Source of the DNA: Halomicroarcula saliterrae
GTDB taxonomy: Archaea; Halobacteriota; Halobacteria; Halobacteriales; Haloarculaceae
Direction: 5' to 3'
DNA: 64,000 bases
Assembly (NCBI RefSeq): GCF_031624395.1
Contig: NZ_JAMQON010000007.1
Coordinates: forward strand, 62,001 to 126,000
Part shown: piece by piece, positions 29,854 through 42,390 of the stretch
Layout: each line of letters begins with the position of its first letter
Numbering within the stretch: position 1 is the first letter of the stretch
Translations under genes and position numbers: made by a program
Notes under the pieces: generated by a model
Told to the model about the DNA's origin: nothing
Seen by the model: the letters and a program-made list of their open reading frames with translations, nothing else
Databases searched by the model: none

Positions 29854-30282
29854 TCAGACCACCTCCGTCGCCGCGACGCCCGGCCCCGTGACGAGTTTGA
29901 CGCGGTTGGGTCGGGCCGACACCGTCGCGTTAATAGCCAGCGTCTCCCCGGGCAGCCAGAGGTCCGTCGCGGTGTCGCCCTCGACGGCCGTCCGGTAACC
30001 CGTCTGGTAGCTGTTGTCGAACAGCACGTCGACGTCTCGCACCGAGAGCTCCGTGGTACCGGTGTTCTCGACGGTGACGTTGACGTACTGCGGGGTCGCG
30101 TTGTAGCTCACGTTGGTCATCCGAATCTCGGTGTTGGTTCGGTCGAGGCTCCGGTCGGCCCGGTCCTCGCGGGCGTCGTTGACGGTCTCGATGCTGTTTG
30201 CGGTCGCCGAGTAGAACATCCCGAAGCCGATGAAGGCGGCTACGAAGATGAGCGCGGCCGAGCCGCTAACGCTGAATCCCAT
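29854..30282 (-). CDS. arlF: Archaellum stator protein ArlF (FlaF)
   Basis: A 142-residue protein with an N-terminal membrane helix (GSAALIFVAAFIGFGMF) and an outer immunoglobulin-like domain (NVTVENTGTTELSVRDVDVL). ArlF binds the S-layer. I chose the ATG at 30282 (MGFSVSGS), which has GGAGGTG six bases upstream. A GTG three codons earlier falls inside that ribosome-binding site. The start overlaps the end of arlCDE by 17 bases. Confidence 0.92.
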   Translation of the reverse strand: MGFSVSGSAALIFVAAFIGFGMFYSATANSIETVNDAREDRADRSLDRTNTEIRMTNVSYNATPQYVNVTVENTGTTELSVRDVDVLFDNSYQTGYRTAVEGDTATDLWLPGETLAINATVSARPNRVKLVTGPGVAATEVV

Positions 30283-31807
30283 CCGAGCCACCTCCCACGA
30301 GCTTCGAGAGCGCGACGGCCTCCGCGCCGCTGTCCTCGTCGAGCTGGGAGATGTAGCGAAGACTCTCGGTGTGGTGGTCGATAGTCAGACCGCTGCCGGA
30401 ATCGTCGACGTCGTCGAAGCCGCGGAGGTAGTCCGCGAGGTCGTCGGCGACGGACTGGTCGATCCAGCCGATGGTCTCGTAGTAGTCGATCGCGCGGGAC
30501 GTCTCGCGGTAGCCGGCCTGACTGACCAGGAACTCCAGCCACTCGATGATTATCATGTCCGCCGCGAACCCCTCCGGCATCGCCGCCAGATAGGGTTTGC
30601 CGTCGTCGCTGTCGGCGGCGGGCTCCGGGGCCGTCTCCGCCGTCGGTTCTGGCTCCGGCTCGGGGGCTGCCTCGGGCTCCGGTTCTGGCTCCGGCTCGGG
30701 GTCTGCCACGGGTTCCGGCTCCGGTTCCGCTTCGACCGCGCCCATGCCGTCCCCGTCGGCCGCTTCGTCGGCCTCGTCCTCGATGACCTCGTCGAAGAGG
30801 TCGTCGTCTTCGAGGTCGCCTTCGTCGTCGTCGAACATCTCGTCGTCGCCCAGAAGGTCGTCGCCGTCGTCCTCCAGCAGCTCCTCGTCGTCCCCCGGTT
30901 CCGCCTCACCGTCGGCCCACTCGGCGTCGCCCGACTCGTACTCGTCTTTCAGCTCGGCGAAGGACTTGCCGCCCTCCCCGTCGTCGCTGTTCTCGTCGTC
31001 CATATCGAGCCCGTCGTCCATACTCATGTCATCTTCCTCCTCGAACTCCTCGTCGAACGCGCCGCCGTCGTCCTCGAACTCCTCGTCGAGGTCGTCCCCG
31101 AACATGTCGTCGCCGTCGTCCATGGACACCTCGTCGTCCATCGACATGTCGTCCTCGACGAGGTCTTCGTCGAAAAACCCCTCAGCGTCGGCGCTGGCCA
31201 CGTCGTCGTCGATGTCGTCGGGTTCGTCGTCGCCACCGTCGTCGTCGAACAGACCGAACGAGCCATCGCCCATACCGCCCCCGCCCATACCGGCGTCGAC
31301 GTCGTCGGCGAAGGGGTTCACGCCGCGCGTGACCATCTCGTAGATGTCGAGCAGCTTCCGGACGTTCTCCTGGACCTCGTCGACGGACTCGGAGATCGAC
31401 TCGTTTTCCGTACGGACGGTGTTGACCGTCGACGAGAGGCTGCCAACCTCGTTTTCCAGTTCGTCGATCCGGTGTTCCAGCTCGTCGTTGTCCGGCCCGG
31501 TGGCGTCCTCCATGTCGCCGAACTCGTCGTCGCCGAAACCGCCCATGTCGTCGTCGTCATCGAGGCCGCCCAGCCCGCCGAGGTCGTCGCCGCCGCCACC
31601 GCCGTCGTCACCCATCAGCCCGCCGCCACCCATCTCGTCACCGCCGCTGTCGTCGTCGCCCTCGTCGTCCGACATGATAGAGTCGAACATGTTCTTGATG
31701 CTCATCCCGACCAGGCCGCCCGAAAGCAACACGACCAGCGCCGGCACGAGCGCGGCCACGTCGGGGGTAAGTGCCTGCAGCGTCGGCACGAGAGCGAAAC
31801 TACTCAT
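30266..31807 (-). CDS. arlCDE: Fused archaellum switch protein ArlCDE
   Basis: A 513-residue fusion that connects the chemotaxis input to the motor in euryarchaea. An N-terminal hydrophobic stretch (VAALVPALVVLLSGGLVG) is followed by a Gly/Asp-rich run. The ArlC-like coiled coil (ESVDEVQENVRKLLDIYEM) is at about 140-165. A very long Asp/Glu-rich linker with EPEP repeats covers roughly residues 180-395. The C-terminal ArlD/E domain (LEFLVSQAGYRETSRAIDYY) is at about 425-480. Haloarchaea commonly fuse these proteins. The linker is low complexity and its length may vary between strains. Confidence 0.92.
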   Translation of the reverse strand: MSSFALVPTLQALTPDVAALVPALVVLLSGGLVGMSIKNMFDSIMSDDEGDDDSGGDEMGGGGLMGDDGGGGGDDLGGLGGLDDDDDMGGFGDDEFGDMEDATGPDNDELEHRIDELENEVGSLSSTVNTVRTENESISESVDEVQENVRKLLDIYEMVTRGVNPFADDVDAGMGGGGMGDGSFGLFDDDGGDDEPDDIDDDVASADAEGFFDEDLVEDDMSMDDEVSMDDGDDMFGDDLDEEFEDDGGAFDEEFEEEDDMSMDDGLDMDDENSDDGEGGKSFAELKDEYESGDAEWADGEAEPGDDEELLEDDGDDLLGDDEMFDDDEGDLEDDDLFDEVIEDEADEAADGDGMGAVEAEPEPEPVADPEPEPEPEPEAAPEPEPEPTAETAPEPAADSDDGKPYLAAMPEGFAADMIIIEWLEFLVSQAGYRETSRAIDYYETIGWIDQSVADDLADYLRGFDDVDDSGSGLTIDHHTESLRYISQLDEDSGAEAVALSKLVGGGSDGIQR

Positions 31808-32049
31808 CGTCTACCATGATTTCCGCAGACGCCCTTGAATATTCCGTCTAGCCTATCATAATTGATAACAAAATCGTTGTTTAACATATATTCCTTGTTA
31901 AATAAAGCCATTCTCTCACGGAGTATCGGTTCCGCCTCCGTTTCATATGGAGATTTAGAAGTAGAGCGTCTGAGAAGTGCGCCTGCGGCAGACATCCGTC
32001 AGACGGTCCCGCTGCGCAGAGCGCCTCGTCGTATTTCAGAAATCGAAAA
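31808..32049. promoter_or_regulatory. AT-rich arlCDE promoter region with a TATCA inverted repeat
   Basis: A strongly AT-rich gap upstream of arlCDE. It holds the inverted repeat TATCA-TAAT-TGATA at 31854-31867, about 50-60 nt before the arlCDE ATG. An open frame of 63 codons (31804-31995, minus) ends in an ATGA overlap with arlCDE. Within that frame, an ATG at 31889 preceded by AAGGAATAT resembles the archaellin leaders. I treat the frame as possible leader sequence, not as a proven gene. Confidence 0.45.
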
Positions 32050-32571
32050 TCAAAGGACGACAGACCCGGTGTTCGCGCTCTTGACCACGAGGTCACCGGA
32101 GTCGGCCTCCAGTCGGAGCGAGCGACCGTGGTCCCCGCCGACGTCCTCGCCGGTGACGGGGATGTCGTACTCCGAGAGGGTCGTTCGGACCTGGTCGAGG
32201 TTGCGCGCCCCGATGGAGGAGCCGTTCTCCGAGAAGTCGAGCATGTCGCTCCCGCCGGCGATCTTCGCCTCCATCGTCGTCGTCGAGGCCCCGACAGCTT
32301 CGAGCGCCTCGACGAGTTCGGCTACCCCGGTGTCCGCGAACTTCGCCCGGTTGCCGCCCTCGACGTTCTCCGCGGTCGGCAACATGATGTGGACGAGCCC
32401 GGCGGCCCCCGTCGGTTCGTCGTACAGCGCGATGCCGATACAGGAGCCCAGCCCGCTCGTCGTCAGCACCGCCGCGTCGGTGGTCACCTCGTACTCGGCG
32501 ATACCGACTTTCAGCCGCTCGGGCTTCGTCGCTCGGGCCCCGTCGGTCTGGCTGCCGTCGTACACTTTCAT
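32050..32571 (-). CDS. cheD: Chemoreceptor glutamine deamidase CheD
   Basis: A 173-residue CheD that deamidates receptor glutamines and interacts with CheC. The catalytic Cys is in TTSGLGSCIGIALYD, with the His in AAGLVHIMLP. The C-terminal half (AKIAGGSDMLDFSENGSSIGARN) is the CheD signature. The ATG at 32571 overlaps the cheC stop (TAATG). Confidence 0.94.
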   Translation of the reverse strand: MKVYDGSQTDGARATKPERLKVGIAEYEVTTDAAVLTTSGLGSCIGIALYDEPTGAAGLVHIMLPTAENVEGGNRAKFADTGVAELVEALEAVGASTTTMEAKIAGGSDMLDFSENGSSIGARNLDQVRTTLSEYDIPVTGEDVGGDHGRSLRLEADSGDLVVKSANTGSVVL

Positions 32572-33788
32572 TATTCGAATATCTGTTCGACGTCGGCCTC
32601 GGTCTCGTCGGCGCGGTCCACGTCTAAGTCGTCGAGCGCCACGCGCAGTTCCTTCTCGTTTGGCAGGGCGTGAATCTCGGCACGGAACTCGATGTCGTCG
32701 GTCTCCATCTTCGAGTCGATGATGAAGGCGTGCTCCTGGTGCTGGCCGACCTGTGCGGCGAGCGGGTCCACGATAGACCGCCCCATGTCGTGAACGAGTT
32801 TCGGCGGCGTGTGGTCGACCGAGGTCTGCAACACGTTCGCCCAGCCGTCGACGAAGCCGCTGGTCATGATGTTGCCCAGCTCCTCGATAGCGGCCTCGTG
32901 TTGCTCGGTCAGCCCCTCGCCCTCGATTTCGACGGGCATCATCGCCTCGGCGACGTTCTCGGCCGACACCTCGTCGAAGAGGACCATCAGGTAGCCACTG
33001 GGGACGCCGGTGAACTCCACGACGGTGCCGACGTACGTCTCCGTGCCGATCTGCTTTGGCACGTCCTCGATGGGTGCGAAGCTTATCTGGGTCACTTCGG
33101 CTTCGGTCGGGATGCCCGTCAGCATCTCGACGTTGTCGGCGGCCTGCTGTGTGCCGCTGGTCGTCATCTCGTTGAACGTCTGGAGCTTGTCGATGGGGAT
33201 GGCGTCGCCGTCCGTGTCGGCGCTGTCCATCATCGCGTCCGCGAGCGGTTCGTACTCGGGCAGCATGTAGATGTAGAAGTTCACGGACTCCCCGACCCAC
33301 TCGATCGCCGATTTGAAGACGAACACCTGCCGGTGGTCGTCGGCTTCGGGGGCCGCCGGCAACACCTCGGCCCCGGACTTCTCGATGTATTCGGGCGGCG
33401 AGTGGTCGATAGTCGAATCCAGATAGTCGGCCCAGCCGTCGATGAAGCCGCTCATCATGATGTTGCCGATCTCGTTGACCGCACTGCGGGCCATCGCCGG
33501 GTCGTCGCTGGCGCCGCCCGTCAACGAGTCGGCGATAGTCTCGGCGGATTCGGCGTCGAACACCAGCACGGTGTCGCCCTGCAGGACGCCCTCGTAGCCG
33601 AACTGGACGCCGACGAACTCCCGGCCCGCGAGGTCCTCGCCGATGTCGGCGCGGTCGAGCAACGTGATTTTGGTCACGTCGACGGCGGCGTCGATGCCGG
33701 TCATCTGGGCCAGCGCCCGGGTGGCCTGCTGGGCGCCCTCGTGGGCGAGCTGGTTGAACGTGCCCAGCGACTGGATATCGACGTTCAT
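32571..33788 (-). CDS. cheC: Tandem CheC phosphatase
   Basis: CheY-P phosphatase with two complete CheC units in one 405-residue chain. The first active motif is VNEIGNIMMSGFIDGWADYL near residue 105 and the second is IEELGNIMTSGFVDGWANVL near residue 307. Both retain the Glu and Asn that dephosphorylate CheY. Each half also has its own SPPEYI/TPPKLV segment. It lies between cheY and cheD with base-level overlaps, so the three act as one unit. Confidence 0.9.
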   Translation of the reverse strand: MNVDIQSLGTFNQLAHEGAQQATRALAQMTGIDAAVDVTKITLLDRADIGEDLAGREFVGVQFGYEGVLQGDTVLVFDAESAETIADSLTGGASDDPAMARSAVNEIGNIMMSGFIDGWADYLDSTIDHSPPEYIEKSGAEVLPAAPEADDHRQVFVFKSAIEWVGESVNFYIYMLPEYEPLADAMMDSADTDGDAIPIDKLQTFNEMTTSGTQQAADNVEMLTGIPTEAEVTQISFAPIEDVPKQIGTETYVGTVVEFTGVPSGYLMVLFDEVSAENVAEAMMPVEIEGEGLTEQHEAAIEELGNIMTSGFVDGWANVLQTSVDHTPPKLVHDMGRSIVDPLAAQVGQHQEHAFIIDSKMETDDIEFRAEIHALPNEKELRVALDDLDVDRADETEADVEQIFE

Positions 33789-34148
33789 CTATGACGGGAC
33801 GACGTCCTCGATAGCCTCCATCACGCTGGGTTTCTGGAAGGGCTTGGTGATGTAGCCGTCGGCGCCGGCCTTGACGGCCTCTTTCATCTTCTCCTCCTGC
33901 CCGACGCTGGTACACATGATGACGTTGGCGTTCGGGTTCGAGGACTTGATCTCGCTCGTCGCCTCGATGCCGTCCCGAATCGGCATCACGATGTCCATCA
34001 TCACCAGATCCGGGGTCTGTTCTTTGTACACTTCGACCGCCTCCACGCCGTTCTCGACTTCCCCAACGATAGTGTGGTCCTCTTCGAGAATCTCCCGTAG
34101 CAGGTTCCGCATAAACTCCGAGTCGTCGGCTATCAGTACGTCTGGCAT
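33789..34148 (-). CDS. cheY: Chemotaxis response regulator CheY
   Basis: Stand-alone receiver of 119 residues from the ATG at 34148 (MPDVLIADDSEFMRN). The acidic pair is D8-D9, the phosphoacceptor D52 in VMMDIVMP, the switch Thr80, and Lys102 in ITKPF. It signals to the archaellum switch through CheF and ArlCDE. The cheC ATG follows directly on the same strand. Confidence 0.96.
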   Translation of the reverse strand: MPDVLIADDSEFMRNLLREILEEDHTIVGEVENGVEAVEVYKEQTPDLVMMDIVMPIRDGIEATSEIKSSNPNANVIMCTSVGQEEKMKEAVKAGADGYITKPFQKPSVMEAIEDVVPS

Positions 34149-34238
34149 GTTGCCAGCTACTACCGGAATAACCGGCATAAACCTGACCCGTAAATTATCG
34201 CTTGTGATACCACCGGCTGCGAGCGGTTCGGCCGGGTG

Positions 34239-36164
34239 TCACAGCGCGGGGAGGGCGTCGGCGACGAGCGCGACGAGGTCGAACGCGTAGCTGCCATAGC
34301 GGAAGTAGACCAGCGCGGAAAGCAGGAGATACGCGGCGGTGAACCCGGCCGACACGGCGACGGCGACGGTGACGGCCCGGTCCGGGACACGGTCCGTGAC
34401 GGTCCGGCCGACGGTGACGACCGCACAGCCGGTCGCGGCTGCGAGTTGCCACAGCGCGCTGTACTGGACCGCCTCGCCGACCGCCAGCTCCAGACCGACG
34501 ATTCCGCCGAGCAGGACGACCAGAGCGGCGACGAGACCGGCGAGAAACGACCCCGCGAGCCACCGCGACCGGGACAGGCCCGCCCGGACCGCCGGGATGC
34601 GACAGACGCCGTACGCGCTGAGCGCGATGGCGGGGTGGAGATACCGGACGGTGAGCATGCTGTAGAGTGGGAGTCGGGGCAGATAGACAAGGGTCAACAC
34701 CGCCGCGAGTGTGACCACGAGCAGGTCGGTCTGGCGAGCCGGCCGCCAGGCCCGCGGATCGAGCGCCCCCAGCGGGCCGTCGACGAGGCGCCGAGCGCGA
34801 CGCCCCGCGAGCGCTGGCAGCGCCGCCAGCGCGCCCAGAATCGGCATCGCTTCGAGCACGGTGAGGTCGATGGGCTCGTAGTCGTTGTTACCGTAGCTGA
34901 CGCTCGGAATCGTCCCGCTCCGGACGAAGATATGCCAGAGCCGGTCGGGCTCGCTCAACACTGCGAGGCCGCCGCCGACGGACTCACCGGCGAACGTCGA
35001 CACCGTTCCGACGGCGTCCCGGGCGACATCGACCAGCGGCGGAGCGGGCTGTCCACCCCCGGGGCCACCGCCACCGGCGCTGTCGCTACTGCCGTTCCCG
35101 CCGACAGTCGTATCGTTCCCGCCCTCGCCCCCGCTCGTGTCGTCCGGCGGCGGCGAGAACTCGGCGTCGCTGTCCACGGGGGACAGCAGACGCGGCGGTT
35201 TCGCGGGGTTCCCGCTGATGGCGTAGTTCGTCGCGAGCATCGGCGTCGACGCCACCAGCAGGACGAGCCCCACGACCAGCAGCGACCGGACGCTGTAGTC
35301 CCGCGTCGTCAGCAGGTCGACGACCCCCAGCACGGCGACGACGAACAGCGCCTCGAAGGCGTGGACCCAGGTGATGTAGCCGGCGAGGGCGTAGGCCCCG
35401 GCCCGGGCTCGCAGGGCGGCGTCGCCCTCCCGGTGCCGACTCACCGCGAACGCGTACACCGCGCCCAGAACCAGCGTCGCGACTATCGTGTGGCGCTTTG
35501 GGAGCGTCGCCCAGAAGCCCACGGGCGTCGCCACGCCGAGCGCGACACCCGCGGCCAGCCCCACGCGGCGCCCGTGTAAGAGCGCGAAGAGGCGGTACAC
35601 GACCAGTCCCGCCGTCGCCGCCACCAGCAGCGTCGAGAGCTGGAGCGCCACGAGCGCGAGGCGGTCGGTCGGAAGCGCGGTCGCGGTCAGGACGCTCGCG
35701 ACGAACAGCAGGGTGACGACAGCGGCACCGACGGCGCGGGTCCGTCCGCGGTCGAAGCGCTCGAACTCGCTCAGCTGGGTCACGAGGGCCAGTCCGACGC
35801 CGGCCCAGAGCCCGGCGAGCAACACGCGCGGAGCCACGACCGTCGAGAGCCCTTCGAGAACCCACACCAGCGGGACCGCGAGCGCGAGCTGGCCGTAGTT
35901 CCGGCCGTAGAACCGGCCGGCGTGTTCGTGGAGGCCGGGCTGGGAACCGAGCGTGAGCGAGTAGCGCAGCTCCGTGACGTGGAGCTGCCCGTCGGCCAGC
36001 GCGACCAAGGTGTTCGCGACCGCGTAGGTGTCCTGGATGAAGAAGCCGACCCGCCAGGCCAGCCCGAACCAGCAGACGAGCCCGAGCCACAGTACGAGGC
36101 CCTGCCGGTCGCCAAAGAGCCAGCGGCCGCCGTCGACCAGCCGACCCCGGGGGTCGTCCGTCAC
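34239..36164 (-). CDS. Large polytopic membrane protein of the motility cluster (glycosyltransferase-like)
   Basis: A 641-residue membrane protein with about 12 hydrophobic helices. Features resemble lipid-linked-sugar glycosyltransferases of the PMT/ArnT superfamily: an early charged loop after helix 1 (GFFIQDTYAVANTLVALADG), GRNYGQLALAVPLVWVLEG, and a long Gly/Ser/Asp-rich outer loop at residues about 330-390. I cannot confirm the catalytic Asp/Glu. It is coupled to the next upstream gene by ATGA (36161-36164). Filament glycosylation is a plausible role given its place between cheY and the archaellins, but that is inference. Confidence 0.7.
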   Translation of the reverse strand: MTDDPRGRLVDGGRWLFGDRQGLVLWLGLVCWFGLAWRVGFFIQDTYAVANTLVALADGQLHVTELRYSLTLGSQPGLHEHAGRFYGRNYGQLALAVPLVWVLEGLSTVVAPRVLLAGLWAGVGLALVTQLSEFERFDRGRTRAVGAAVVTLLFVASVLTATALPTDRLALVALQLSTLLVAATAGLVVYRLFALLHGRRVGLAAGVALGVATPVGFWATLPKRHTIVATLVLGAVYAFAVSRHREGDAALRARAGAYALAGYITWVHAFEALFVVAVLGVVDLLTTRDYSVRSLLVVGLVLLVASTPMLATNYAISGNPAKPPRLLSPVDSDAEFSPPPDDTSGGEGGNDTTVGGNGSSDSAGGGGPGGGQPAPPLVDVARDAVGTVSTFAGESVGGGLAVLSEPDRLWHIFVRSGTIPSVSYGNNDYEPIDLTVLEAMPILGALAALPALAGRRARRLVDGPLGALDPRAWRPARQTDLLVVTLAAVLTLVYLPRLPLYSMLTVRYLHPAIALSAYGVCRIPAVRAGLSRSRWLAGSFLAGLVAALVVLLGGIVGLELAVGEAVQYSALWQLAAATGCAVVTVGRTVTDRVPDRAVTVAVAVSAGFTAAYLLLSALVYFRYGSYAFDLVALVADALPAL

Positions 36165-36628
36165 GGCTGCCCCCCGACGGTGACGGTCGCTCTGGTGAGG
36201 GGACGGTCGCCGGTGAAACTCTGGACGCGGACGGACAGCGTCGCGTCGTAGGACCCACCGGCGGTGCCCGGCGGTATCGCCCGGTCGTCGGGCGCCAGCC
36301 GGTAGGTTCCCGGGCCGGTCACGACGCGGCTCTCGATAAGCCTGATATCCAGCGCCGGCACCGAGACGACGTAGAGCAGCCGCGGGCGGTCGGTGACGCC
36401 GCCGACGGTGACCGTGGCCGTCGGCACACGGAGGTACGTGACGTTCGCCCCGAAGCGCCCGGGCGTCAGTGCCAGTTCGGACCGGTCGACGGTGATGTCG
36501 GTGACTGTCGCGTCACCGTCACCGAAGGAGGTGTCGGCGGCACTCGTCACGTCGACCCCGGTCAGGGGTCCGGTCCCGACGAGGGCGAAGACGACGAAGA
36601 GTCCGGCCACAGTCACCCATCGAACCAT
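36161..36628 (-). CDS. Secreted hypothetical protein coupled to the motility membrane protein
   Basis: A 155-residue protein from the ATG at 36628 (MVRWVTVAGLFVVFALVG). It has an N-terminal signal peptide or anchor followed by a beta-rich domain (GRFGANVTYLRVPTATVTVGG, then SYDATLSVRVQSFTGD). No named domain is recognised. Its stop overlaps the start of the large membrane protein, so the two are co-translated and probably work together at the outer face of the membrane. Confidence 0.65.
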   Translation of the reverse strand: MVRWVTVAGLFVVFALVGTGPLTGVDVTSAADTSFGDGDATVTDITVDRSELALTPGRFGANVTYLRVPTATVTVGGVTDRPRLLYVVSVPALDIRLIESRVVTGPGTYRLAPDDRAIPPGTAGGSYDATLSVRVQSFTGDRPLTRATVTVGGQP

Positions 36629-36673
36629 CGCGTGTGCTACCAACGACTGTCCCGTGGCTTAAACCCCTCGCCG

Positions 36674-37234
36674 CTACAGCTGTGCGCCGTCGCGCTCCTC
36701 GACCGCGTCGACGAGGTCCGCGATACTGTCGTCGGGGCTCAGTCCGACCGACCGGGCCAGGGATTTGACGCTGCCCGGCGGGTACTTCACCGGGACGTTC
36801 GACTCCGAGAGCAGGATACCGAGGACGTCCTCGACGTCGGTCGACCCGTCCATCTGGCGGCCGTACCAGAGCATGAGGCTCTCGAAGACGGTGACGATGT
36901 CGTTCGAGGAGAGGCGCTGCTGGTCGACCTCGCCGTCGAACTTCGCGGTCACGTCGAACCCGTAGCGGGCGTTCGAGTCGGCCATCTGCTCGGCGAGCCA
37001 CTCGTGGACGTTCCCGTCGGTGAACGCCGGAGTCTGTGGGTCCGGTTCCCGCTCGGTGCGGGGTCGCGGCGGCGTCGGCCCGCTGCCGGCGGTGTCGTCC
37101 TCGCGCACGTCCGGTGAGACGACGTACCGACCCTCGTCGATCTGGGTGACGTGCTCGTCGTCTTCCAGATCGAGCTCGTCGGGGGAGAGAATCTTCCCGT
37201 CTTCCGGATTCGGTTCGTCGGGCCCCCGGTCCAT
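36674..37234 (-). CDS. Conserved motility-cluster hypothetical protein
   Basis: A 186-residue soluble protein. The first 80 residues are acidic and disordered-looking (DRGPDEPNPEDGKILSPDEL). The folded C-terminal part contains VHEWLAEQMADSNARYGFDV and a helical tail (IADLVDAVEERDGAQL). No transmembrane helix is present. It sits between the archaellins and the secreted and membrane proteins on the same strand. A role as cytoplasmic archaellum accessory factor is guessed from position only. Confidence 0.7.
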   Translation of the reverse strand: MDRGPDEPNPEDGKILSPDELDLEDDEHVTQIDEGRYVVSPDVREDDTAGSGPTPPRPRTEREPDPQTPAFTDGNVHEWLAEQMADSNARYGFDVTAKFDGEVDQQRLSSNDIVTVFESLMLWYGRQMDGSTDVEDVLGILLSESNVPVKYPPGSVKSLARSVGLSPDDSIADLVDAVEERDGAQL

Positions 37235-37312
37235 ACCCCACAGTGTGAGAGGAAGAACTATAATTCCGTCGCTGGTGGGCGTCGAGCTACCGAAAAGAGA
37301 AGTCGCGCGGAT

Positions 37313-37939
37313 TTAGAGGTTGACCGCAGAGGCGCCAGACAGGGTCTCCGGGACCACGAGTCGCAGTTCCGTGGTGCCACCGGACTGGGTGTTGATCTGG
37401 ATCGTCGCCGTGTCACCCTCTTCGAGGCCGCTGGTGGTGGAGACGATGTTGCTGGTGTCGAGGATGAGCTGTGCGCGGTCCGCGGGGTCGTTGAGCACGA
37501 CACCGGTAGAGCTGAGCGAACCGTCCTCGTCTTGCACGTCGGTCACACCGAAGTTCTCGCCACCGGGCGAGAGGGCAGTGCCATCGGTGTTGTAGCTCCC
37601 GTAGGTCAGGTCAGTCGACCCGCTGGAGTGGACGAACTGCAGCGTCGTCGTCCCGAGGTCGATGTTCCCCGCACCGGGGGCCTTCTTCACCGTGATGCGG
37701 ACGGTCTGTACGCTGCCGGAGTTGATGTCTTCACCGACGGCGCTCACAACCTGGAGCCGGTTGGTCACTTGGTCACTACTCTGCTGTCCGGTTTCCTCGG
37801 CACCGCTCTGCAGGAACCCGGCCGTGTTGATCAGGACGCCCGCGGCGATGGCCGCCACCAGCACCATCGCGATGAACACGATGAGGGTGCCGATACCGAC
37901 CTGCCCGCGGTCGTCGTCGTTCCGTAATTCGTTGAACAT
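37313..37939 (-). CDS. arlB: Archaellin (major filament protein), copy 1
   Basis: A 208-residue archaellin from the ATG at 37939 ([20 protein letters not shown]). The PibD/ArlK processing motif is [22 protein letters not shown] (written split: the DRGQ precedes the cleavage, then the hydrophobic core). An N-terminal region nearly identical to copy 2 is followed by a divergent middle and a shared C-terminus ([20 protein letters not shown]). It has its own leader hairpin and upstream 19-bp element. The frame upstream of this ATG is not coding. Confidence 0.95.
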
Positions 37940-37948
37940 GTATATTCC

Positions 37949-37963
37949 GGGTCTGTCTGACCC
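37949..37963 (-). promoter_or_regulatory. Leader hairpin of archaellin copy 1
   Basis: GGGTC-loop-GACCC lies just upstream of the start in the transcript, followed by CCGGAATATACATG. The same arrangement, with a different loop, precedes copy 2. A role in mRNA stability or translation is inference. Confidence 0.5.
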
Positions 37964-38004
37964 TACAGTCAGTCTGCCTTTCACCAGTAATAATACCTCT
38001 CCCC

Positions 38005-38023
38005 AAAATATCTCTCCTGATAA
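38005..38023 (-). promoter_or_regulatory. Shared 19-bp element upstream of archaellin copy 1
   Basis: The plus strand reads AAAATATCTCTCCTGATAA, about 66-84 nt before the ATG. It is related to the elements at 38919-38937 and 39408-39426 and is most conserved in CTGATAA. The position fits an activator or repressor site next to the core promoter. Confidence 0.6.
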
Positions 38024-38231
38024 CAGACGTTGTGGGCGCTCTTCCATCGCTTTTCGGCTTAATCTCCAGACGAAGCTCACGTTCGCGAAGGGGCGGAGTG
38101 GCAGTCTGTAGACAGAAAGCGGTGGGACCGAACCGGGATGTGGTCGACGGGCCCGGTGTGTCGGTACGCACACGCGAGGAGCGCAGCAGCTGCGGGGTCA
38201 AGCGTCGAGACCGAAAAGGGGACCTGTGGCG

Positions 38232-38855
38232 TTACAGGTTGACCGCGGAGGAGCCGGATAGCGTCTCTGGGACCACGAGTCGCAGTTCCGTGGTGCCACC
38301 GGACTGGGTGTTGATCTGGATCGTCGCCGTATCGCCCTCGGCGAAGCCACCGGTTATCTCCTGGGTGTCGAGGATGATCTGTGCGCGGTCCGCGGGGTCG
38401 TTCAGCACCGGGGCGTCACCCTCGATGGACTGGCCGCCCTCGTCCTGAACGTCGGTGACGTCGAACGCCGTCCCGGACGGGTCGAGCGTCGACTCGTCGG
38501 CCGCGTACGTCCCGAAGGTGATGTCGGTCGACCCGCTGGAGTGGACGAACTGCAGCGTCGTACTGCTCAGGTCGATGTTGTTGGCGCCGGGCGCCTTCTT
38601 CACCGTAATCGAGACCGTATCGACACCGTCCGAGCTGACGTCGGTGCCGACGGCACTGACCACCTGGAGTCGGTTGGTGACCTGGTCGCTGCTCTGTTGT
38701 CCGGTTTCCTCGGCACCGCTTTGCAGGAATCCGGCCGTGTTGATCAGGACGCCCGCGGCGATGGCCGCCACCAGCACCATCGCGATGAACACGATGAGGG
38801 TGCCGATACCGACCTGCCCGCGGTCGTCGTCGTTGGGTCTGAAAGCTTCGAGCAT
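38232..38855 (-). CDS. arlA: Archaellin (filament protein), copy 2
   Basis: A 207-residue archaellin starting [18 protein letters not shown], with the same DRGQ processing motif and hydrophobic core as copy 1. The middle (residues about 95-165) differs from copy 1. The last 35 residues ([12 protein letters not shown] end) are almost identical. The two copies are separated by 292 bp containing a full promoter for copy 1, so they can be expressed separately. Confidence 0.95.
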
Positions 38856-38864
38856 GTATATTCC

Positions 38865-38878
38865 GGGTTGTACTACCC
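38865..38878 (-). promoter_or_regulatory. Leader hairpin of archaellin copy 2
   Basis: GGGT-loop-ACCC just before GGAATATACATG. The 16-nt stretch CATGTATATTCCGGGT (plus strand) at 38853-38868 is identical to 37937-37952 at copy 1, while the loop and distal arm differ. Confidence 0.5.
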
Positions 38879-38918
38879 TATCCGAGTGTTCTTTTCGCTA
38901 CTGATAATCCCTTTCCCC

Positions 38919-38937
38919 GAGTATTTATTGCTGATAA
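38919..38937 (-). promoter_or_regulatory. Shared 19-bp element upstream of archaellin copy 2
   Basis: The plus strand reads GAGTATTTATTGCTGATAA, about 64-82 nt before the ATG at 38855. It has the same spacing as at copy 1, and its GCTGATAA end is identical to the element at 39408-39426. Confidence 0.6.
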
Positions 38938-39084
38938 TAAGCTTCTATGGCGCTCTACACCCGATTTTTCCCGATAGAGTGGTGTATCCGGTACCGTGAT
39001 TCCCAGCGGCCGTGGGACGAGTGGCGGCGCGTCGACAGTCGCTACCGAGCGAAACTGCGTAGAACTGCGGTGTCGGAACGCCCG

Positions 39085-39360
39085 TCACTCGTACGTGACG
39101 AGACTGTACATCACGAACAGGTAGCCGAAGGTCGTCAGTCCGCTGTTGACGAGCAGGAGCGACCGGACGCCCTGGAAGTCGTTGATGAACGCGCTTATCA
39201 TCGTCGCCGCCGCGCCCGCGACCGCGAGCGAGAAACCGAGCGACAGGTAGAGCATCGCCTGCCTGGACGTCTGGACGTACGCCCGCATCGCCATCCCGAC
39301 CATCGTGAGTCCGGCGACGACGAACACGAGCGTCGAGACGGCATAGAGGAGTTCTATCAT
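39085..39360 (-). CDS. Small membrane protein next to a winged-helix regulator (DUF7521-like)
   Basis: A 91-residue protein from the ATG at 39360 (MIELLYAVSTLVFVVAGLTM) with three predicted helices (residues about 3-24, 34-57, 66-87). A GTG 42 nt upstream would put the start on top of the TATA-like GGATTTAATAC, so I reject it. Haloarchaea often pair such proteins with a winged-helix gene, as here. The 19-bp element shared with the archaellin promoters lies just upstream. Confidence 0.72.
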   Translation of the reverse strand: MIELLYAVSTLVFVVAGLTMVGMAMRAYVQTSRQAMLYLSLGFSLAVAGAAATMISAFINDFQGVRSLLLVNSGLTTFGYLFVMYSLVTYE

Positions 39361-39407
39361 CTGCACTGGGACCACGTAGGCGAACCCCCGTATTAAATCC
39401 ACGCTCG

Positions 39408-39426
39408 AAAATATCTACGCTGATAA
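39408..39426 (-). promoter_or_regulatory. Shared 19-bp element upstream of the small membrane protein gene
   Basis: The plus strand reads AAAATATCTACGCTGATAA, matching the copy 1 archaellin element at 16 of 19 positions. It lies about 48-66 nt upstream of the ATG at 39360 and directly after the stop of the winged-helix gene. Confidence 0.6.
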
Positions 39427-39435
39427 TCGGCCCGC

Positions 39436-39780
39436 TTATCTGTCCGAGAGGGTGCGCCAGGCCTCGTCGAGCTTGTTCGTGACTTCGGAACGCTCCTCGA
39501 CCTGCACGCTCAGCCCCTCGTCGAAATCGACCCGTACTTCGTCGACGTTACGTCGATATACTTTGATACGCCGCCGGTCGTCCGAGAGGATGTTGTCGTG
39601 GAGTTCGAGCAGATCGTGTTCGGTCAACTCGTCGATACGCCGGTAACAGGTCGCGATAGGAATCTCGAGTTCGTCGCTCAGGTCCTGTGCCGAGATGGGT
39701 TCGTCCGTCGCGTCCAGTATCTCGGCGCTGTATTTGTTTCCCAGCGTCTGGAGCAACTCCGCGGATGCCATCGTTATCAA
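39436..39780 (-). CDS. Winged-helix transcriptional regulator
   Basis: A 114-residue ArsR-like winged-helix protein. The first helices are ASAELLQTLGNKYSAEILDA. The recognition region is SAQDLSDELEIPIATCYRRI, and a basic wing follows (SDDRRRIKVYRR). The ATG at 39780 or the one at 39771 could be the start. The TATA-like GCTTTATTAAAGT lies 25-35 nt upstream. Its place inside the motility block, next to genes sharing a 19-bp element, makes it a candidate regulator of archaellin expression. That link is inference. Confidence 0.85.
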   Translation of the reverse strand: MITMASAELLQTLGNKYSAEILDATDEPISAQDLSDELEIPIATCYRRIDELTEHDLLELHDNILSDDRRRIKVYRRNVDEVRVDFDEGLSVQVEERSEVTNKLDEAWRTLSDR

Positions 39781-39915
39781 ATCATAAATTCAGACTTTAA
39801 TAAAGCTATCGGCGATGATACTGTCCGATTCGAGCGACGATAGAATTTTCGCGGAGAGCGCGATACCAACTGACAGAGAGTTCCTCGGCGACATTTCACG
39901 TCCTAATAACGGCGA

Positions 39916-40641
39916 CTATATCGGCGACTCCTCCTCGCTCATCATCGAGAAGGCGCTCGCGTTCTGGTGGACCTTGAGGCCGCCCCAGTCGATCTCCATC
40001 GGGTAGATATCCGTCTCGATGTTTTGCTTTCGCATCTTTGCGACCCAGACGTACCGGCTGACACCGGAGTCGGTCGGGGTCTGGATGAGGTAGATGTTCC
40101 CGTCGGTGAGGTAGTTCTCCAGCCCGATCTCCGTGTCCGGGAACACCGCTCCCTGTTCGTTTGTCAGCAGCGTCGTCAGCCCGTTCTCCCGGAGAATATC
40201 GGTGAGTTTCAGCAGGTAGGTTCGCTTCTCCTTCTCGCTCTCGAAGAAGAGCTGGAACATCGCCAGCGAGTCGAGCACCAGCCGGTCGTAGTCGTCGTTT
40301 TCGAGGTCGTCCAGCAGGATTTCGAGCGAGGAGGAGAAGTCGTTCTCCCGGAGCAGCACCTGCTTGTCGTACACCTTGATATCGCCGTTTTCGACGTACT
40401 CGGGCCACTTGTCGAAGCCGATGGACTCGGCGGCCTGCCGGAGGTCCGACTCGTTTTCCTCGAAGGAGAGGTAGATGCCTTTCTCGTCGAACATCTCGAC
40501 GCCGTTGTAGATATACTGGAGACAGAGTATCGACTTCCCGGCACCGGGATTACCGCTTATCAGGGTCGTGGAGTTCTTGACGATACCACCGTTGAGGATG
40601 GCATCGAGACCGTCGATGCCAGTCTTGGTTAGCTGTATCAT
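39916..40641 (-). CDS. KaiC/RadA-like ATPase of the motility cluster
   Basis: A 241-residue single-domain RecA-fold ATPase related to KaiC and ArlH. Walker A GNPGAGKS is at 30-37, and a Walker B-like DRLVLDSLAMFQLF is near residue 120. It differs from the true ArlH found at 28.6 kb, so it is a second, distinct member. It lacks an HTH and any membrane segment. Signal relay or regulation of motility is possible but not shown. Confidence 0.82.
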   Translation of the reverse strand: MIQLTKTGIDGLDAILNGGIVKNSTTLISGNPGAGKSILCLQYIYNGVEMFDEKGIYLSFEENESDLRQAAESIGFDKWPEYVENGDIKVYDKQVLLRENDFSSSLEILLDDLENDDYDRLVLDSLAMFQLFFESEKEKRTYLLKLTDILRENGLTTLLTNEQGAVFPDTEIGLENYLTDGNIYLIQTPTDSGVSRYVWVAKMRKQNIETDIYPMEIDWGGLKVHQNASAFSMMSEEESPI

Positions 40642-40721
40642 ATTCGGGATGTTTGTGGTTGGTTACCTGTTCGTCGTTGTCGGGTGTTAAAAACTCTTGT
40701 TGCCCGACACGCTTTGGCTCG

Positions 40722-41156
40722 CTACTGTGTGCTGTGAACGACAGCCGGGTCGACCCAGATGACGAACTCGTCGTCGCGCTTGACGACGCCGCGTATCGAA
40801 CCGGAGTCGTTCGCCGGAGACTGGTCTATCTGTTCCGGTGTGACCTGGACGACCTGATACACCTCGTCGACCAGCCACCCCGCTGCGCCCTGGTCTTGGA
40901 CGATATCCGGGTCGAAGACGATAATCCGCTGGCCCTCGCTGTCGCCGTGGATGCCGAAGACGGTCTTCGGGTCGACGATGGACGTCGTCCGCCCGCGGAG
41001 GTCCATCACCCCTTCGACGTGGGCCGGGGCGTTCGGGACCTGTGTCAGGTCGCCGATGTCGACGATTTCGGTCACGTAACCGATGCTGACACAGTACGTC
41101 TCCTCGCCGAGTTGGAATTCGAGCACCTGACCGGTGGTAGTTGACTGGGCTGCCAT
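40722..41156 (-). CDS. cheW: Chemotaxis adaptor CheW
   Basis: A 144-residue CheW that couples receptors to CheA. Typical segments are LEFQLGEETYCVSIGYVTEIV, VEGVMDLRGRTTSIVD and GWLVDEVYQVVQV. It is divergent from cheB; the minus-strand TATA-like GCCTTTTATAGG lies 30-45 nt upstream. Confidence 0.95.
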   Translation of the reverse strand: MAAQSTTTGQVLEFQLGEETYCVSIGYVTEIVDIGDLTQVPNAPAHVEGVMDLRGRTTSIVDPKTVFGIHGDSEGQRIIVFDPDIVQDQGAAGWLVDEVYQVVQVTPEQIDQSPANDSGSIRGVVKRDDEFVIWVDPAVVHSTQ

Positions 41157-41325
41157 GGCTCCGGATTACCTGAACGTCGTCGATGGGCCTATAAAAGGCT
41201 GCTTGCTGGACTATCAACTTTGATTACGTGGGCGGAGTCTTTATTTTGGGCCAGTTGGGAGTTCGGCGTAGCATACAGATGTTCCGTCCACACACGAGAA
41301 CCACCCCGCCGGGACACGCCTGACG

Positions 41326-42390
41326 ATGACCGGCGGGACGCGTGCGGTAGTGGCCGACGACTCGCATTTCATGCGGAGTGTCATCTCAGACATCCTCGAA
41401 GAGGGGGGTATCGAGGTCGCCACCGAGGCGAAGAACGGCCGCGAGGCCGTCGAGGCCGTCCGCACACACGAGCCGGACGTGGTGACGATGGACGTAGAGA
41501 TGCCCGAGATGAACGGTATCGAGGCCACGGAACAGATCATGGCCGAACGGCCGACGCCCGTGCTCATGCTCTCCGCGCACACGGACGAGAACGCCGACGT
41601 GACCTTCGAGGCGCTGGATAAGGGCGCCGTCGATTTCTTCACCAAGCCCGGCGGCGAGGTGTCGATGGAGATGTCGCGGCTGAAAGACCAGCTCGTCGAC
41701 ATCGTCTCGTCGGTCGCGCGGGTCGACGTCGGCACGCAGTCCTCGACCCCGCGGGCGGGCCGGGGGACGAGCGGGGCGAGCACCCGCAACCGGAGCTACA
41801 CCGCGAACCCGACGCTGGTCGTCGGCTCCTCGACCGGCGGGCCGAAGATGGTCGAGCAGGTGATGGCGGAGCTGCCCCGGGAGGCCGACTTCCGGGTGCT
41901 CGTCGTCCAGCACATGCCCGAGGGCTTTACCGGCCGCTTCTCCGAGCGCATCGACGACCGGAGCGACTACGACGTGCGGGAGGCGACCGACGGCGCTCGC
42001 CTCGCCGGCGGCGAGGCGCTCGTCGCTGCCGGCGACCGACACATGGAGGTCAAGAACTACCGGAACGGCCGGCTCCGGGTGAAGCTGACACAGGACCCGC
42101 CCGAAAACAGCGTCCGACCCGCCGTCGACGTGACGATGCGGACGGCCGCGGCAGTCATCGACGACCCGCTGGTGGGCGTCATCCTTACCGGGATGGGCGG
42201 GGACGGGGCCGACGGCATCGTACGGCTGAAAGACGCGGGCGCGCGCACTATCGCACAGGACGAGGCCACGTCAGCGGTGTACGGGATGCCAAAGCGGGCC
42301 GTCGAGACCGGCTGCGTGGACAGCGTGCTCCCCATCGACGAGATGGCGAACGGGATTCTCGACGCGATAACGACCGAGGTGAGCTCATAA
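41326..42390 (+). CDS. cheB: Protein-glutamate methylesterase CheB
   Basis: Receptor demethylase for adaptation. The receiver has D11-D12 and the phosphoacceptor D56 in VTMDVEMP. A Gly/Ser/Thr-rich linker runs at about 135-160. The esterase triad is Ser168/169 in VVGSSTGGP, the His in VVQHMPEGF, and the Asp in LTGMGGDGADG. The stop overlaps the cheA ATG (TAATG). Confidence 0.96.
   Translation: MTGGTRAVVADDSHFMRSVISDILEEGGIEVATEAKNGREAVEAVRTHEPDVVTMDVEMPEMNGIEATEQIMAERPTPVLMLSAHTDENADVTFEALDKGAVDFFTKPGGEVSMEMSRLKDQLVDIVSSVARVDVGTQSSTPRAGRGTSGASTRNRSYTANPTLVVGSSTGGPKMVEQVMAELPREADFRVLVVQHMPEGFTGRFSERIDDRSDYDVREATDGARLAGGEALVAAGDRHMEVKNYRNGRLRVKLTQDPPENSVRPAVDVTMRTAAAVIDDPLVGVILTGMGGDGADGIVRLKDAGARTIAQDEATSAVYGMPKRAVETGCVDSVLPIDEMANGILDAITTEVSS

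Follow-up and report, generated by a model that had tools for sequence, protein, structure and literature searches.

A palindromic element of archaellin, arl and che promoters in Halomicroarcula saliterrae as the probable operator of a neighbouring CsmR ortholog

We have analysed a 64-kb stretch of the Halomicroarcula saliterrae genome (the whole of which is called the window below) and propose, with a probability of about 0.86, that a palindromic element found upstream of its archaellin, arl and che genes serves as operator for CsmR, the product of the winged-helix gene 39436-39771. This identification rests on a palindrome conserved 15 nt before the TATA region, on the orthology and synteny of csmR, and, by analogy, on the binding motif reported for Haloferax.

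Three copies of the element lie in the window, AAAATATCTCTCCTGATAA at 38005-38023, GAGTATTTATTGCTGATAA at 38919-38937 and AAAATATCTACGCTGATAA at 39408-39426, and they bear out, beyond chance, the claim of an earlier note on this DNA that both archaellin promoters and a small membrane-protein gene have an element in common. Since the target genes of all three are on the minus strand, the functional readings are TTATCAGGAGAGATATTTT for the archaellin 37313-37939, TTATCAGCAATAAATACTC for the archaellin 38232-38855 and TTATCAGCGTAGATATTTT for the DUF7521 gene 39085-39360, the near edges being ~65, 63, and 47 nt upstream of the starts 37939, 38855, and 39360, respectively. On the gene strand the element is an imperfect palindrome, TATCA-N4-TGATA, and the TATA box begins 15 nt past this core. 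The match is actually longer than 19 bp: an unprompted repeat search joined the three copies as a 40-nt ungapped, in-register family that includes the TATA region.

The motif is far from equally frequent at random, as TTATCAGN5ATATTTT with up to 3 mismatches has 6 matches in the 64-kb window while 0.13 are expected. Genome-wide counts were obtained by pattern searches rather than by a PWM scan of all bases. The composite TATCAN5GATAN15TTA occurs exactly at 3 places in the 4.195-Mb genome, all of them in the window (at cheY, an archaellin/arlA and DUF7521), and at 13 places with one mismatch; an order-1 Markov simulation modelled on the window gives 0 and 0.5, respectively. At two mismatches the matches are mostly due to chance (80, versus 55 for the reversed control, all classes). 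For the core TATCAN4TGATA alone, there are 4 exact places genome-wide, one being the arlCE promoter (31854-31867), and 40 within one mismatch, six of which fall in the 31854-41225 part of the window. The TGATAA that had been noted earlier near arlCDE is present at 31862-31867 and turns out to be part of this full palindrome. The sites and genes concerned are as follows.

31854-31867, minus strand: core TATCAATTATGATA, a perfect palindrome that lies 46 nt upstream of arlCE and contains TGATAA 31862-31867; 18/18 relatives, outside training.
34196-34209, minus strand: putative operator core TATCACAAGCGATA of the cheY operon; exact composite 34178-34209; PWM 38.5; 46/47 relatives.
38009-38022, minus strand: putative CsmR-type operator core TATCAGGAGAGATA of the archaellin 37313-37939; exact composite with TATA 37991-38022; PWM 36.6, Haloferacales-only PWM 31.6.
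38923-38936, minus strand: degenerate putative operator core TATCAGCAATAAAT of the archaellin 38232-38855; composite 38905-38936; PWM 17.7, Haloferacales-only 15.2.
39412-39425, minus strand: putative operator core TATCAGCGTAGATA of the DUF7521 gene; exact composite 39394-39425; PWM 39.7; 53/54 relatives.
39774-39779, minus strand: half-site TGATAA in the region of the csmR start and TSS; kept in 49/74 csmR promoters.
39807-39820, minus strand: CsmR-type core TATCATCGCCGATA in the csmR promoter, a candidate autoregulatory site; TATA region 2 nt downstream.
41212-41225, no strand assigned: single palindrome TATCAACTTTGATT serving the divergent cheW (minus) and cheB (plus), with a TATA region on each side; PWM 24.6 and 22.1.
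30266-31807, minus strand: arlCE, head of the archaellum operon (Pfam PF04659, PF05377).
33789-34145, minus strand: cheY (gene listing and locus comparison).
37313-37939, minus strand: archaellin (Pfam PF01917).
38232-38855, minus strand: archaellin (Pfam PF01917).
39085-39360, minus strand: DUF7521 (PF24365), 91 aa, three TM, predicted core CsmR target (Pfam, promoter PWM, structure model).
39436-39771, minus strand: csmR ortholog, 111-aa winged-helix regulator, PF12840 HTH_20 (Pfam, reciprocal best match, synteny).
39916-40641, minus strand: KaiC-like ATPase adjoining csmR, likely CirA counterpart (Pfam, synteny); own promoter without the element.
40722-41156, minus strand: cheW (Pfam PF01584).
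41326-42390, plus strand: cheB (gene listing and locus comparison).

Both TATCAGGAGAGATA and TATCAGCGTAGATA are one mismatch from TATCA(N4)TGATA, and the arlA copies deviate from it at at least one position. In the core 38923-38936, which belongs to the archaellin 38232-38855, the closer of the two to csmR, one half-site is degenerate; this predicts weaker or different control for this archaellin than for its tandem partner.

The arrangement recurs among relatives, for which 80 named loci of Haloarculaceae and Haloferacales were compared. In their promoters the half-sites are almost always 4 nt apart, and the TATA region begins 15 nt downstream of the core in 41/43, 16/16, 46/48, 43/45, 39/43, and 18/18 cases in six promoter sets; at the arlCE promoter no clear TATA is seen at offset 15. 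Dyad counting with no motif supplied recovered TCA-N5-GAT and GAT-N16-TTA independently at the arlA, cheY and cheW promoters, and at the DUF7521 promoters the overlapping GAT-N17-TAA in place of the latter; these dyads are absent from the top dyads of the same unbiased count at the relatives' KaiC and DUF7500 promoters.

We then built a 32-nt matrix from the composite as seed, refining it on the archaellin, DUF7521, cheY and cheW promoters, with a cut-off at 99% of the null. Above this level are 53/54 DUF7521, 46/47 cheY, 39/44 cheW and 50/78 arlA1-like promoters of the training families (the 28 arlA1-like non-matches include tandem copies without a promoter of their own), and, outside training, 18/18 arlCE and 27/46 cheB promoters, versus 2/343 in eight presumed non-target gene sets, mostly operon-internal genes. 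The search in the genome and in relatives that the earlier note had proposed finds the composite at 3 exact places against 0 simulated, and conserved sites in the relatives' archaellin and other arl/che promoters. When the full matrix is run over the 64 kb, seven sites alone exceed 5, namely those of arlCE, cheY, the two archaellins, DUF7521, cheW and cheB, the last two on one palindrome. A Haloferacales-only matrix gives the same seven sites scores of 15.2-35.3, while the maximum in 30 shuffled windows is 11.4.

The regulator itself has a described counterpart. In Haloferax volcanii, CsmR (HVO_1209) is a 13-kDa winged-helix protein encoded beside arlA1/arlA2, which works with the KaiC-like CirA and whose ChIP-seq motif, TATCA(N4)TGATA, lies next to the TATA box of motility genes (PMC13286277, PLoS Genetics, June 2026). 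By position and sequence, the winged-helix gene 39436-39771 is the csmR ortholog: its product and the protein of locus L188 are reciprocal best matches at 62-63% identity, with the next paralog at 40%, L188 coming from another haloarchaeal genus and being tied to Haloferax by gene order alone. That locus has csmR-arlA1-arlA2 with a convergent KaiC, as in the published Haloferax order, and perfect TATCAN4TGATA at arlA1 and cheY. The KaiC-like gene 39916-40641 is likely the CirA counterpart, and such a gene adjoins csmR in nearly all of the 80 loci. The earlier note was right that a winged-helix gene sits beside one copy of the element, but this copy belongs to DUF7521, and the sites of csmR itself are placed differently; the start given there, 39780, is less well placed than the ATG at 39771.

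How CsmR would act at these promoters can be considered from the geometry. A CsmR dimer on the palindrome would be placed just upstream of the BRE, always on the same face of the DNA, and would contact TFB, so setting the transcription of the archaellins, the arl and che operons and DUF7521; it would most likely be an activator in the motile phase, modulated by its KaiC-like neighbour CirA. The fixed spacing and the place upstream of the BRE favour TFB contact, as proposed for EarA, which makes activation the leading reading, at slightly better than even odds. On the other hand, CsmR may be a repressor, or a dual regulator dependent on growth phase, a tentative reading that we hold at less than even odds. 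Deletion of csmR in Haloferax raises arl/che transcripts, which a simple activator does not predict; the fixed spacing could equally serve cooperative blocking of TFB, and at csmR itself the sites overlap BRE/TATA/TSS. Nevertheless, motility is abolished in the same deletion and rises on overexpression, and activators, EarA among them, usually have their sites upstream of the BRE. The Haloferax study leaves activation, repression or both undecided (PMC13286277).

The csmR promoter itself departs from this geometry. Members of the Haloarcula group have a TATCA-N4-CGATA core there, its end 34-36 nt upstream of the start and the TATA 2 nt downstream of it, and in some Haloferacales a core ends ~4 nt before the start; TGATAA within 15 nt of the start is found in 49/74 csmR genes versus almost none elsewhere. 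Since the TATA region begins 2 nt past the core 39807-39820, this core overlaps the BRE/TATA of csmR. The placement of 39807-39820 and 39774-39779 over the core promoter suggests autoregulation, which is probably negative: CsmR bound over BRE/TATA and start would limit its own synthesis. Taken further, CsmR might be a dual regulator coded by geometry, recruiting TFB where its site is 15 nt upstream of TATA (arl, che, DUF7521) and repressing where it covers its own BRE/TATA/TSS, a self-limiting motility switch with DUF7521 as an unrecognised core motility protein under its control; we regard this scheme as possible, somewhat short of an even chance. With two promoter geometries over ~80 loci, the question of activator, repressor or both is reduced to a simple promoter mutation.

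It is improbable that another factor, either a CsmR-like paralog or an alternative TFB reading an extended promoter, binds the element with csmR as a mere neighbour. About a dozen CsmR-like wHTH paralogs are present in the same genome, and the Haloferax network includes a TFB variant; however, the palindrome is the one published as the CsmR ChIP-seq motif, the synteny of csmR and its sites holds over two orders, and a palindrome 15 nt upstream of TATA suits a wHTH dimer, not a BRE. As to the class of the protein, Lrp/AsnC, in which PMC13286277 places CsmR, was rejected: Pfam HTH_20 and HTH_24 are above cut-off with no AsnC domain, and the structure model, of low confidence (pLDDT 60.7), matches Phr (PDB 2P4W, the best Foldseek match, 17% identity) and ArsR/SmtB types in fold. 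Phr is also the structure match reported for Haloferax CsmR (PMC13286277); Phr of Pyrococcus furiosus differs in being a longer protein with a heat-shock regulon. A sequence search of CsmR against the PDB gave no match. EarA of Methanococcus/Pyrococcus is likewise a winged-helix protein that regulates the archaellum, and its sites directly precede the BRE/TATA of the archaellin promoter (PMC10665913, PMC5512572), but these are TACATA-type repeats and no palindrome. CsmR is reported to lack sequence or structural similarity to EarA. The EarA system was rejected here, as no TACATA occurs in the two archaellin promoter regions of the window and EarA is published as absent from haloarchaea.

Judged from promoter sequences, the element marks most arl/che promoters of this genome and its relatives, beyond the archaellins. 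With seven sites including those of arlCE, cheY, cheW and cheB, the regulon should be the whole arl/che regulon. Of the small archaellin regulon with its regulator in the block that the earlier note had envisaged, the shared element and the neighbouring likely regulator therefore stand while the size does not, as sites also occur at these four genes and elsewhere. That just two archaellins and one membrane protein are controlled is very unlikely: three copies were found by eye and aligned over 40 nt, but an exact composite stands at cheY, the arlCE, cheW and cheB sites are conserved in relatives, and further targets lie outside the window.

The order KaiC-CsmR-DUF7521-archaellins-DUF7500-cheY-arlCE is kept through Haloarculaceae, and csmR is divergent from DUF7521/arlA in Haloferacales. 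The information content is 1.0-1.9 bits in the half-site columns and ~0 in the spacer, and this conservation pattern is a sign of selection on the site, not of mere relatedness. Spread of the promoter copies by archaellin gene duplication, with no regulatory meaning, is scarcely credible, since even though the two archaellin promoters are duplicates with a 16-nt identical leader, DUF7521, cheY, cheW and arlCE are unrelated genes and spacer and flanks are randomised while the half-sites are kept.

Considering that the window regulator is an ortholog of CsmR with its published motif, the system is already known. Shared with the Haloferax regulon (PMC13286277) are the winged-helix gene beside the archaellins, the KaiC-like gene nearby, the motif next to the TATA box and targets in the arl and che operons. 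In contrast, the family is another one, the KaiC-like gene here immediately precedes csmR on its strand, and DUF7521 is a conserved target between csmR and arlA; CsmR binding in vivo is known from Haloferax only. Relative to the main text of that report, the 15-nt geometry across ~80 loci, the DUF7521 target and the csmR self-sites are new, and the shared cheW/cheB operator is counted as new too. Overall, the switch described for Haloferax extends over haloarchaeal families, and the CsmR regulon can be mapped with a sharper motif made up of core, 15 nt and TATA.

No other gene of unknown function is marked as consistently as DUF7521, which with 53/54 promoters is a predicted core target of CsmR. 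Its product is confidently modelled as a three-helix membrane protein (pLDDT 93.7), for which a structure search found no PDB relative. Outside the window, a third archaellin (G000:C3:29424-29966; L205, L267), far from the arl cluster, has the element 52 nt upstream at C3:29322. Further sites precede an MCP (C1:110702), CheC (C1:1052774), two KaiC-like genes, a type IV pilin, histidine kinases and response regulators; the usual distance from the start is 44-53 nt. These individual targets are predictions, and the one-mismatch singletons include some chance matches. No strong site was found upstream of the five RdfA homologs (PF21811) of the genome, and so no direct link to rod-shape genes.

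Also outside the window, a CsmR-like palindrome, TATCACTGCTGATT (G000:C1:1266777-1266790, L073), lies 47 nt upstream of a salactin gene (PF25229). A degenerate element recurs 45-47 nt upstream of salactin in several relatives, and the ParA/MinD-like gene divergent from salactin has a stronger site (score 20.8). Because the scores vary and salactin deletion in Halobacterium makes no difference to motility, this link stays a lead.

In nine loci (L125, L126, L128, L131, L134, L136, L142, L145, L153), CsmR and a KaiC-like protein are encoded side by side with no arl-cluster or che genes found in the locus. No operator sites were found near the pair in loci without arl/che genes, whereas loci with che genes keep them, and CsmR and its KaiC-like neighbour may thus serve in something other than motility. 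Finally, four metagenome-assembled loci (L098, L100, L108, L114) have che genes and DUF7521 with no archaellin detected between DUF7521 and cheY, and have kept both the DUF7521 and the cheY operators.
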